Assembly (NCBI GenBank): GCA_023250585.1
Contig: JAHFAK010000031.1
Location: 1 to 19,587 of the forward strand
Length of the DNA: 19,587 nucleotides
DNA from: Deltaproteobacteria bacterium
GTDB lineage: Bacteria; Bdellovibrionota_F; JAHFAK01
Reading direction: 5' to 3'
Shown here: in pieces, positions 5,105-19,421 of the stretch
Position numbering within the stretch: position 1 is the stretch's first letter
Layout of the letters: each line of letters starts with the position of its first letter
Notes under the pieces: model-generated
Told to the model about the DNA's origin: nothing
The model's database searches: none
The model's input: the letters and a program-made list of their open reading frames with translations, nothing else
Position numbers and translations under genes: made by a program

Positions 5105-5237
5105 AAGGGGAAAAACTCAAAGATGAGCTGACAACCTGTTAAGCCGAGATGTCGATCGGTACCAAAACACTGTTTTATCCAATAATCGTCAAAAGGTGGG
5201 GACCGACATATGAACTCATTTGGTCGGGGGCACTTTG

Positions 5238-5993
5238 TTATAATTTCCCAATCAAATACTGCGTTAAAGCAGTGACGCCAATTGCCGCTACATCAGCGGT
5301 AAGAACTCGTTCAGAAAATTGCGTTGAAATAAAACCCATTGCAAGAAGAGCTTTTACTTCAGATTCTTCAAAGCCGCCTTCGGGGCCAATTATGAGAAAA
5401 ATTGCATCATAGTTTTTATTCTGAAGAACATTCCAGAGTTTTATTTCTTTTTCATGTTCATTTAATAAAATTTTGAAGTTCTTATGAACTGCATAGATAT
5501 GACTTATCGATTCTAGTGATTCACTAAGAGAGTTAATGGTCTCGACATCATGTATTTTTGGAATAGCATACCGATCAGATCGAATGACCGCAGGCACTAC
5601 AAGTTTTTGCCAACGCTCACACTTTGCTTTGTTATTTCCAATTCGCGGAACAACGCGATTGGTGACACACGGAATAATGCCAGAGATACCAAGCTCCGTT
5701 GTTTTTTCGATGACATCATCCATAGCATCGCCTTTAAGTATGGACTGAATAAGAAAAAGTTTTGGTTTTCTTTCAGGAATAACATCATTTTTTTTAAGAA
5801 TACAAAAAACTGCGCTTCGTCTATTTATTTCTTTGAGCTCGGCTAAATAGGCTTCTCGTTCATTGAAGAATTCAACTTCCTCGCCAACTGAAATTCGTGT
5901 TACCTGAAGTCGATGAAGTAATTCTCGATCAGTTGTTTCAATTTGTTGGTCATGTATCTCGAGAGGATCTTTATACAACCGATGAAGGGTCAT
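5238..5993 (-). CDS. rsmE: 16S rRNA m3U1498 methyltransferase RsmE
   Basis: RsmE is a SPOUT-fold, SAM-dependent enzyme that methylates N3 of U1498 in 16S rRNA. The N-terminal PUA-like part (1-70) and the SPOUT core are both present. Motifs seen are KGDAMDDVIEKTTELGI (88-104), a conserved Arg-rich stretch at 137-145 that ends in IP, and the SAM-loop signature GPEGGF at 203-208. Length 251 is normal. One departure: the usual knot motif close to RxLRTETA reads RVLTADVAA here (229-237), so the second Arg and the Glu are replaced. The downstream gene is mnmA, with a 167-bp gap that holds a weak hairpin and no gene I can support. No strong Shine-Dalgarno precedes the ATG. Confidence 0.88.
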   Translation of the reverse strand: MTLHRLYKDPLEIHDQQIETTDRELLHRLQVTRISVGEEVEFFNEREAYLAELKEINRRSAVFCILKKNDVIPERKPKLFLIQSILKGDAMDDVIEKTTELGISGIIPCVTNRVVPRIGNNKAKCERWQKLVVPAVIRSDRYAIPKIHDVETINSLSESLESISHIYAVHKNFKILLNEHEKEIKLWNVLQNKNYDAIFLIIGPEGGFEESEVKALLAMGFISTQFSERVLTADVAAIGVTALTQYLIGKL

Positions 5994-13239: not shown

Positions 13240-13740
13240 ATGAGAATAAAGAATAATAAATCTGAACACTTACAAATCAGAATTACCGCCGAAGCTAAGA
13301 AAAAACTCTTTCAGCTTGCGAAAGTAAACAACATGACATTATCTGAATGGATTTTATCTAAGCTCTCCATTGAAAATTCACCTTATACTATTCAAAGCAT
13401 TTACGAAGAATTATCGAAAAAACACAATCAAGCATTTGCATATGTACAATTACATGATCTTCTCATGAAGGTCTCTCCTCAACTGTGGGATGATTTTGTA
13501 TCTATTCGTCCACACAATCTTGAATGCGAAACCATGGCATATACAGCTTCAATGATTGAGAGAGCCGCTCAAATGAGGGGACTAACACAACCTCCCTGGA
13601 TAAGAGAAGTAGAAACATGCTCTCCACCTTATTTTGCAACTAACTTACAAACTCTTAGGCTCTATCTTCTGATCAACTCGCCGGTAGCATTTAGAAAAAG
13701 AAATATTTTCATTGATTCAAGCACAGGAGATAGAGTGTGA
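13240..13740 (+). CDS. Ribbon-helix-helix protein, probable antitoxin/regulator of the downstream nucleotidyltransferase
   Basis: Residues 10-42 (LQIRITAEAKKKLFQLAKVN, then a NMTLSEWILSKL helix) have the beta-strand-helix-helix pattern of Arc/CopG-type DNA-binding antitoxins. The remaining 120 residues form a larger domain ending in PPWIREVE...LRLYLLINSPVAFRKRNIFID, a pattern I remember from proteins encoded directly upstream of DUF6036 nucleotidyltransferases. The next gene starts inside this one's stop codon (GTGA overlap at 13737-13740), so they are translationally coupled. Upstream is a good promoter with an inverted repeat over the -35, consistent with autoregulation. Antitoxin function is inferred from domain and layout, since no toxicity is shown by sequence. 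Confidence 0.75.
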   Translation: MRIKNNKSEHLQIRITAEAKKKLFQLAKVNNMTLSEWILSKLSIENSPYTIQSIYEELSKKHNQAFAYVQLHDLLMKVSPQLWDDFVSIRPHNLECETMAYTASMIERAAQMRGLTQPPWIREVETCSPPYFATNLQTLRLYLLINSPVAFRKRNIFIDSSTGDRV

Positions 13741-14258
13741 AAATACTTTTGGACAAAAAAACCATTCTCGAACTTTTTAATGCCTTAAACCAAAAACTCC
13801 ACAAAGAAAATGTCCAAGGAGAATTGTATTTAGTTGGAGGAGCTGTTATGTGCCTAAACTTTAATACACGGCCATCAACACTAGATATCGATGGCTATTA
13901 TGCACCAAAAACAAAAATAAAAGAAGCTGCGCAAAAAGTAGCTGAAGAGTTTAATATTAATACTGATTGGCTCAACGATGCCGTAAAAGGTTTTTTAAGT
14001 CCTCATGGAAATTTTTCAGAATATTTAGAGCTGTCTCATTTAAAAATATTTTGCGCACATCCCGAGTATTTATTAGCAATGAAATGTCTCTGCATGCGAT
14101 TAGGCAAAGAATTTCATGACGAATCAGACATACGCTATCTTCTCAGATATTTGAACATAACAAAATCCGAAGATGCTCTTAAAATTATCGAAAAATATTA
14201 TGATCAAAAACTCATCCCTCAAAAAACCTTCTACGCTTTAGAAGAATTACTTTCGTGA
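13737..14258 (+). CDS. DUF6036-like nucleotidyltransferase, putative toxin partner
   Basis: The 173-residue protein has the minimal nucleotidyltransferase core: YLVGGAVMCL with Gly34-Gly35 followed by RPSTLDID with Asp50 and Asp52, the GG...DxD metal-binding pattern of the DNA polymerase beta-like fold. Downstream, LKIFCAHPEYLLAMKCLCMR and DESDIRYLLRYL match the helical part of the DUF6036/AbiEii-related families, where a Lys follows the sheet and an Asp-rich helix ends the domain. Related enzymes in toxin-antitoxin systems transfer nucleotides to tRNA or protein; the target here is unknown. It starts with GTG inside the stop of the RHH gene. Its 3' end overlaps the convergent comEA-like gene by 12 bp. 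Confidence 0.75.
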   Translation: MKILLDKKTILELFNALNQKLHKENVQGELYLVGGAVMCLNFNTRPSTLDIDGYYAPKTKIKEAAQKVAEEFNINTDWLNDAVKGFLSPHGNFSEYLELSHLKIFCAHPEYLLAMKCLCMRLGKEFHDESDIRYLLRYLNITKSEDALKIIEKYYDQKLIPQKTFYALEELLS

Positions 14259-17690: not shown

Positions 17691-18725
17691 ATGGCTTTTA
17701 AAAAAACGACTCAAAAAGTTGATATCAATAAACGAAAAATTATCAATGGAGAAGATGCAGATGTAGTACAGCTGTATCCGATAAAACATACCTTCGCATG
17801 GGAAGCCTATAATGCAGCAAATGCAAATCATTGGCTTCCAACTGAAATCAGCATGCAAAATGATATTGAGGAATGGAAGTCGACTAAAGTTTTATCACAT
17901 GATGAACGAACAGCATTAAAAATTGTCCTTGGATTTTTTACGACAGCAGATTCCATTGCGGCAAATAATATTGTACTTGGTTTTTATCGCCATATTACAT
18001 CTCCGGAATGCCGGCTGTATCTGTTACGTCAAGGGTATGAAGAAGCTATTCACACGCATTCCTATCAATACATTGTCGAAAGTTTACGACTCAATGAAAG
18101 CGAAATCTTTAATATGTATCGCGAGAATCAAGCAATTTATAATAAAGATGCCTTTATTCTTTCTTTTAATGAAGGCATTCTTAATCCGCATTTTAAAACA
18201 GGTACCGTGGAAAGCGATCAAAAATTCTTAGAAAATATCATTATTGCTTCAATCATTATGGAAGGAATTTTTTTCTATAGTTCATTTGCTGTTATGTTTG
18301 GATTTCAACGCCAGAATAAACTTATGGGATCAGCTGAACAAATCCAGTACATCATGCGTGATGAATCCATGCATCTTAACTTCGGTATCAACCTGGTAAA
18401 TACCATTAAAGAAGAGCAGCCAGAACTATGGTCAAAAGAGTTCCAATCACATGCAATAGATTTAATTAAAACAGGTGTTGAACTCGAATGTACTTTTGCA
18501 ACTGAAGTTTTCCCTAAAGGAATATTTGGCCTCAATGCCGATAACTTCAGACAGTATATTCAACATATCGCTGATCGCCGCCTCGCTCGTATTGGCCTTT
18601 CCGAACAATACCGTTCACCGAATCCATTTCCCTGGATGTCAGAAGCAATTGACCTCAATAAAGAAAAAAACTTCTTCGAAACACGAGTCATCGAATACCA
18701 AACCGGTGGCACACTTGAGTGGTAA
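17691..18725 (+). CDS. nrdB: Class I ribonucleoside-diphosphate reductase, beta subunit (chlamydia-like clade, tyrosyl type)
   Basis: NrdB holds the dimetal site and radical that drive NrdA. All six ligands of the E. coli enzyme are found at matching spacing: Asp87, Glu118, His121, Glu191, Glu225, His228, with Tyr125 at the radical position (EAIHTHSY). As I remember the chlamydial protein, much of the sequence closely resembles it, including NWLPTE-like, FAWE and the C-terminal FPWMSE...LNKEKNFFETRV..EYQT block. Chlamydial class Ic has Glu and Phe where this has Asp87 and Tyr125, so an ordinary tyrosyl radical is expected. The C-terminal peptide should dock on NrdA. AGGAG overlapping the nrdA stop is the ribosome site. 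The last 51 bp are repeated exactly at 19331-19381. Confidence 0.95.
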   Translation: MAFKKTTQKVDINKRKIINGEDADVVQLYPIKHTFAWEAYNAANANHWLPTEISMQNDIEEWKSTKVLSHDERTALKIVLGFFTTADSIAANNIVLGFYRHITSPECRLYLLRQGYEEAIHTHSYQYIVESLRLNESEIFNMYRENQAIYNKDAFILSFNEGILNPHFKTGTVESDQKFLENIIIASIIMEGIFFYSSFAVMFGFQRQNKLMGSAEQIQYIMRDESMHLNFGINLVNTIKEEQPELWSKEFQSHAIDLIKTGVELECTFATEVFPKGIFGLNADNFRQYIQHIADRRLARIGLSEQYRSPNPFPWMSEAIDLNKEKNFFETRVIEYQTGGTLEW

Positions 18726-18764
18726 GTGCATATACCCGAACGGGCGAGAAGTAGCGTCACACCT
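18675..18764 (+). repeat. Direct repeat copy A, spanning the nrdB 3' end
   Basis: Covers the last 16 sense codons and stop of nrdB plus 39 bp beyond. It matches 19331-19421: the 51 coding bases are identical and the following 39-40 differ by one indel and three substitutions. The start-to-start distance is 656 bp. Confidence 0.92.
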
Positions 18765-18787
18765 TGTACTCCCTCAGTTATTATTGT

Positions 18788-19048
18788 TTATTTATATACC
18801 AGCGGATAGCGTTCAGGAGCTGTGATGGCATCGAGTTCTAAGTCAACATCAAGTAGAGGCCAATACAAATGATCCCCCTGTAATAACTTTAGATGAAACA
18901 CATCGGAAAGTCGTGCTTTCTGAAACCATGGAAATTGAGTATGTGACAAAAAATACTCTGCATCGTTTACAAGAACCCAGAGGCCATGAGAAGTAACGGT
19001 TAGTACTTCAGCTTTTGAAATGTTTTCTCCATGCTTTTTTGATTTCAT
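18788..19048 (-). CDS. DUF2442 domain protein
   Basis: The 86-residue protein fits the DUF2442 pattern: a short strand before a DG-like turn (VLTVTSHGLWVLVNDAEYFLS), an F/W-rich middle (FPWFQKARLSDVFHLKLL) and a closing LYWPLLDVDLELDAI strand that usually gives the W-P-x-LD motif. I use the ATG at 19048, preceded by GAGGA; an upstream TTG at 19063 is possible. Its first 41 bases overlap the end of the DUF4160 gene, so the two are translationally coupled. DUF4160 and DUF2442 genes are often adjacent in bacteria and are suspected toxin-antitoxin-like partners, with no established biochemical activity that I know of. Confidence 0.8.
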   Translation of the reverse strand: MKSKKHGENISKAEVLTVTSHGLWVLVNDAEYFLSHTQFPWFQKARLSDVFHLKLLQGDHLYWPLLDVDLELDAITAPERYPLVYK

Positions 19049-19247
19049 CTTTTCGTTCCTCAATAATTTTCTCTAGTTCTCTTAATGCTCTCTCGGGAAG
19101 CCCATAACATATAGCTAAAGACACCGTGGGCTCCAACCAAAACTTTGCTTCTCCTCTCGGTGATGCAACATGAATATGCATTCTTTGTTCTTCTCGAGAA
19201 AAAAAGTAAAAGCGCCATGACCTATGCCGAAAAACTGTTGGACTCAT
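19008..19247 (-). CDS. DUF4160 domain protein
   Basis: The 79-residue sequence carries the DUF4160 hallmarks: SPTVFRHRSWRFYFFSRE at the N-terminus, MHIHVASPRGEAKFWLEP (23-40, with the HIHV and KFWL blocks) and a C-terminal helix PERALRELEKIIEERKDEI ending in KAWRKHF. This is the whole normal domain, so the gene is intact. No Shine-Dalgarno is seen before the ATG, although TATACAAT sits directly upstream. It is the first gene of the minus-strand pair and overlaps DUF2442 at its 3' end. The gene body sits entirely inside the segment between the nrdB 3'-end repeats, consistent with being cargo. Confidence 0.82.
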   Translation of the reverse strand: MSPTVFRHRSWRFYFFSREEQRMHIHVASPRGEAKFWLEPTVSLAICYGLPERALRELEKIIEERKDEIKKAWRKHFKS

Positions 19248-19330
19248 ATTGTATAGTATTAATTTTCAATAATAATACTCCTGAAGTCAAGGCATCAGAA
19301 AGGTGGGCCACATCTGTTTTCACCTGTTTT

Positions 19331-19421
19331 TTCGAAACACGAGTCATCGAATACCAAACCGGTGGCACACTTGAGTGGTAAGGTGCCTATACCAAAACGG
19401 GCGAGAAGTAGCGTCACACCT
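19331..19421 (+). repeat. Direct repeat copy B, displaced nrdB 3' end
   Basis: Repeats the nrdB C-terminal codons (the FFETRV...GTLEW end, then TAA) and the following non-coding bases, without any nrdB sequence before them. Preceding bases show no further match to nrdB beyond about 4 bp. It is probably the ancestral end of nrdB, pushed away by the insert, although copy A could equally be the original. Confidence 0.92.

Follow-up and report, generated by a model that had tools for sequence, protein, structure and literature searches.

A dispersed repeat behind nrdB and a displaced copy of the nrdB tail, possibly carried by a REP/TIR-like element

The window, a stretch of 19,587 nucleotides of DNA from a deltaproteobacterium, contains the 3' end of nrdB twice. 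On sequence grounds, the repeated 90-bp block is a composite of the nrdB tail and a 39-base repeat that is dispersed in the genome, which we call family A. Rather than a new integration site, the repeat seems to be a small mobile element or one end of such an element. In the explanation that we favour, to which we give roughly an even chance, the 39-base sequence behind nrdB would be one copy of a dispersed, terminal-inverted-repeat-like family of the REP/TIR kind, mobilised in trans, most likely by a RAYT-type (Y1, HUH) transposase. The right end of the element, AGTAGCGTCACACCT, would be fixed and its left end loose, so that copying would sometimes take upstream sequence along. The nrdB tail would thereby have been carried to position 19328 of the window and to contig C143, and a trace of it put into the right arm of four palindromic dimers.

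The nrdB gene (17691..18725, plus strand; PF00268, E 4e-87) ends in ...FFETRVIEYQTGGTLEW and a stop codon, and the first family A copy (18726..18764, plus strand), which ends AGTAGCGTCACACCT, begins at the very next base. The repetition of this arrangement 656 bp downstream, reported by the first-pass annotation, is borne out: positions 18672-18726 and 19328-19382 are identical at 54 of 55 bases, and positions 18726-18764 and 19383-19421 at 36 of 39, with one inserted base (G at 19382). The exact repeat of 51 bases cannot be due to chance within 20 kb, and an assembly duplicate is excluded because the sequences of the two copies differ. The downstream block consists of a displaced nrdB tail including the stop codon (19328..19381, plus strand), where no real gene ends, and the second family A copy (19382..19421, plus strand), which ends CACACCT. 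To its left lies a flank (19309..19327, plus strand; CACATCTGTTTTCACCTGT...) that contains CACCT-plus-target repeats like those beside other family A ends. The 657-bp segment at 18765-19421, which comprises two DUF genes, the nrdB tail and family A, has CACACCT on either side. An intrinsic terminator was not found at either copy by a terminator scan, and scanning the window for Rfam families and tRNAs gave no matches.

The two copies had been described as exact in the coding part and changed in the non-coding part, a contrast that is not significant (1/55 versus 4/40 differences, Fisher p = 0.16). The differences are confined to one patch of ~13 bases, 18726-18738, which simple copying does not explain. 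Beyond the patch, the tract GGGCGAGA is present in copy 1 and copy 2 alone among the 28 aligned family A copies. The common tract, together with the differing patch, suggests conversion between the copies.

We searched the draft genome to which the window belongs (2.24 Mb in 164 contigs, estimated to be 96.7% complete) for family A, using a pattern search and a sequence model trained on 28 copies. There are 32 copies at E below 0.002, located at 24 places, which supports the mobile-DNA origin and the recurrence that had been suspected from the window. The consensus is approximately AAGTGCCTATACCCGAACGGACGGGAAGTAGCGTCACACCT, with the strongest conservation in the last 15 bases and a fixed right edge (AGTAGCGTCACACCT, CACACCT). 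Because of this distribution, the 39-base tract is not nrdB's own. That the 90-bp sequence might be a dispersed repeat unrelated to nrdB therefore applies to its 39-base part and not to its nrdB part, which is not dispersed: the genome-wide search located the nrdB tail only in copy 1, in copy 2 and, in degenerate form, at the end of contig C143. Apart from the copy at nrdB, four family A copies begin 10 bases or fewer past the stop codons of long open reading frames (248 aa in C107, 367 aa in C71, 487 aa in C80 and 463 aa in C28, the last of which we take to encode a cysteinyl-tRNA synthetase-like protein). The copies in C48 and C95 also have upstream sequence in common, and a search for a source gene of this common flank found none. 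Family A is so far known from its own genome alone, as judged by pattern scans of genomes and viruses, which gave three GTDB and seven viral matches at chance level or of unrelated context, and by blastn of one dimer against plasmids and phages, which gave no matches. Among 30 other genomes sampled, only one belongs to the same class, with no nrdB match in it, and none is close enough for an empty-site comparison.

The sequence after the terminal CACACCT is repeated as short X-CACCT-X units in 13 of 26 copies, against 0.6 copies in shuffled sequence and a rate of 2.3% at other ACCT sites, and X differs from site to site (L024-L052, family A ends). This pattern is real and could have arisen by slippage at the end or by repeated cutting and joining at CACCT. 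In several dimers of family A and of a second repeat family, B, similar X sequences stand on each side in inverted orientation. A conserved hairpin within family A monomers was not supported (54% of cells paired, no covariation). At L080 124-178 a hairpin, CCACGGCTTAAGCCGTGG, lies upstream of an A-like end, an arrangement that resembles IS605-type right ends.

The direction of the transfer follows from the nrdB end itself. NrdB ends in GTLEW* and GSLEWE* in two distant genomes and in GTLEW* in the window; since this ending is common to other NrdB proteins, the window gene has its native, ancestral 3' end and the tail was copied from nrdB. The tail seems to have moved together with family A at least twice, to copy 2 and to C143. 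These two tails align with nrdB from 18672 and 18666, respectively, and both have CACACCT as their right end. A fixed right end with attached upstream sequence suggests that copying is anchored on the right. The looseness of the left end rests on few cases, as the two copied nrdB tails begin only about 6 bases apart.

Further traces of nrdB occur in inverted dimers of family A, of which there are four, each of ~106 bp. Two of them were folded, each giving a long hairpin (z -6.5 and -7.7 as DNA, and -8.8 for one as RNA). In all four, the 18-base stretch leading into the right arm agrees with the nrdB tail at 12-13 positions (p 0.0004 or less each, the four not being independent); the left arms have no such match. 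Among the other family A copies, a strong match to this 18-base stretch of nrdB is found only in C143 and copy 2.

The genome encodes seven proteins with Y1 family matches, three of them RAYT-type (C32, C47 and C69), which match NCBIfam REP_Tyr_transpos with E 7e-18 to 2e-19, scores under the cutoff of that model. The RAYT gene of C47 is flanked by inverted repeats of family B (consensus CATATGTCGGTCCCCACC, then mostly TTTTG), which has 35 copies in the genome. One of these is in the window (5195..5237, minus strand), beginning just past the stop codon that ends the gene at 5238-5993. A short hybrid unit at C66:121-198 has a family B left end and a family A right end. TnpAREP enzymes cut at CT (PMC8266576), and family A ends CACACCT. 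From the RAYT-type genes, the family B repeats at C47, the hybrid unit and this cutting specificity, we infer that a RAYT-type Y1 (HUH) transposase is the likeliest mobiliser of family A, although no family A copy was found beside the RAYT genes at the loci examined. We rejected retrotransposition, as the genome has no PF00078 match to a reverse transcriptase, and an integron, as IntI was not found and the tyrosine recombinases are only XerC, XerD and an odd protein of 1019 aa with a partial domain. This last protein (L075 8124-11183) carries the partial tyrosine-recombinase domain N-terminally and is encoded among housekeeping genes near XerC.

Between the two copies of the block lies, as annotated, a pair of toxin-antitoxin-like genes on the minus strand, encoding a DUF4160 protein (19008..19247; PF13711, E 2e-16; weak match to NCBIfam toxin_DhiT), the predicted toxin side, and a DUF2442 protein (18788..19048; PF10387, E 1e-10), the predicted antitoxin side of a dhiTA-type pair. 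In dhiTA, an experimentally shown toxin-antitoxin system, the DUF4160 toxin gene likewise comes first and the DUF2442 antitoxin gene overlaps it (PMC8198452), whereas the window pair, with its weak NCBIfam match only, is a putative toxin-antitoxin system by gene make-up. The pair could equally have moved with the element or have been resident when copy 2 landed beyond it. A fixed partnership of DUF4160 with the repeats was rejected, since of the six DUF4160 genes in the genome only that in C82 is near family A and only that in C45 near family B. The window contains another two-gene pair of this type at 13240-14258, a weak RHH-antitoxin-like protein and a DUF6036 nucleotidyltransferase, with no family A copy nearby.

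Genes of this kind adjoin family A elsewhere, and mobile toxin-antitoxin-like cassettes are possible. The family A ends might be recombination sites, the 657-bp segment having been inserted exactly after the CACACCT of the nrdB copy, in the manner of integrons or dif modules with another enzyme. We consider this unlikely, despite the CACACCT that borders the segment on both sides. When AbiEii, DUF4143 and DUF4160 genes were located genome-wide, 9 of 24 family A sites were within 1 kb of one (1.4 expected; P 6e-6, an optimistic value, the gene families having been chosen after they were seen near family A), compared with 3 of 27 family B sites (1.6 expected), which have no such excess. Other neighbours of family A copies are PIN, Fic, HEPN plus nucleotidyltransferase and RlaP genes; a DUF4143 gene stands between two dimers in C66, and DUF4143 and PIN genes between two single copies in C97. 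Against recombination sites of this kind, most DUF4143 and AbiEii genes of the genome have no family A copy nearby, no cassette was found at two sites, and there is no IntI. The association is a lead, not proof. At the opposite ends of other cassettes, no convincing degenerate family A copies were found. In C97 (L079 1340-3760), a CAAAATAATGTGCGCAAGAAAGC stretch adjoins both family A copies around the DUF4143 and PIN genes. It is rather doubtful that, more generally, family A ends bound chromosomal toxin-antitoxin or defence cassettes inserted exactly at CACCT by a RAYT-type single-strand transposase, an integron-like system with an HUH enzyme in place of the integrase.

In the proposal of the first-pass annotation, a tyrosine recombinase would have integrated a circle site-specifically into the 3' end of nrdB, which would make nrdB a new att site. 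Such an event would leave direct repeats and a displaced gene end, as are seen here, and the different cargo anticipated at another copy is present in C143, where AbiEii and DUF4143 ATPase genes stand beside the third nrdB tail. We nevertheless regard integration of this type as very improbable: many genes are followed by a dispersed copy of the 3' half of the repeat, nrdB-tail traces are also found within the palindromic dimers, the only tyrosine recombinases are XerC, XerD and the 1019-aa protein, and no integrase gene lies in the window (as the annotation had noted of recombinases) or beside the repeats elsewhere. It is unlikely that the nrdB end is an att site of the usual kind. Ordinary recombination, whether the nrdB end was duplicated in tandem or family A copies recombined and DNA was then lost or gained, would accommodate the patchy differences between copies 1 and 2, which suggest conversion, and the repeated family A copies would supply the homology. 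It would need several steps and by itself leaves the C143 copy and the dimers unexplained, which makes it quite unlikely as the full account. One-ended copying of a RAYT-moved element, the explanation that we favour, would make this locus a legible instance of how a REP/TIR-like repeat can spread a fragment of a host gene to other sites. Should the association with toxin-antitoxin genes hold, it would also offer these genes a route to spread in chromosomes without plasmids, integrons or phages.

Parts of this picture recur in known systems. The inverted dimers of family A, with conserved outer ends, a spacer and a long hairpin in the two that were folded, are like REPINs and BIMEs, whereas the monomers lack a conserved self-palindrome and the copy number is low (PMC3116915). 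REPs are recognised as self-palindromic units of 20-40 bp, tagged at one end with GTAG or CGTC; in family A, GTAGCGTC is present, but it is near the 3' end, followed by the fixed CACACCT, and not a tag 5' of a hairpin. With the IS200/IS605 and TnpAREP chemistry the genome shares the presence of Y1 enzymes, and the CACACCT end seems compatible with cutting at CT, although no pair of left-end and right-end hairpins is defined for family A (PMC8266576). The dif (pdif) modules of Acinetobacter similarly hold accessory genes, including toxin-antitoxin pairs, between short repeated sites, but family A is not recognisable as a dif site and its copies sit among chromosomal genes (PMC6449649). Integron attC cassettes are likewise single-gene units beside imperfect palindromes; here there is no IntI, and the two dimers that enclose the C66 gene face in opposite directions. 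The TIR families and TIRtrons of RAYT-like tyrosine transposases differ in that no RAYT gene was found flanked by family A, which carries nrdB sequence and often borders toxin-antitoxin-type genes; like the present repeats, they are short, lie dispersed between genes, frequently as oppositely oriented dimers, and share the genome with RAYT-like genes; here, the gene in C47 is flanked by family B as inverted repeats (Di Nocera et al., 2013, PMC3733652).
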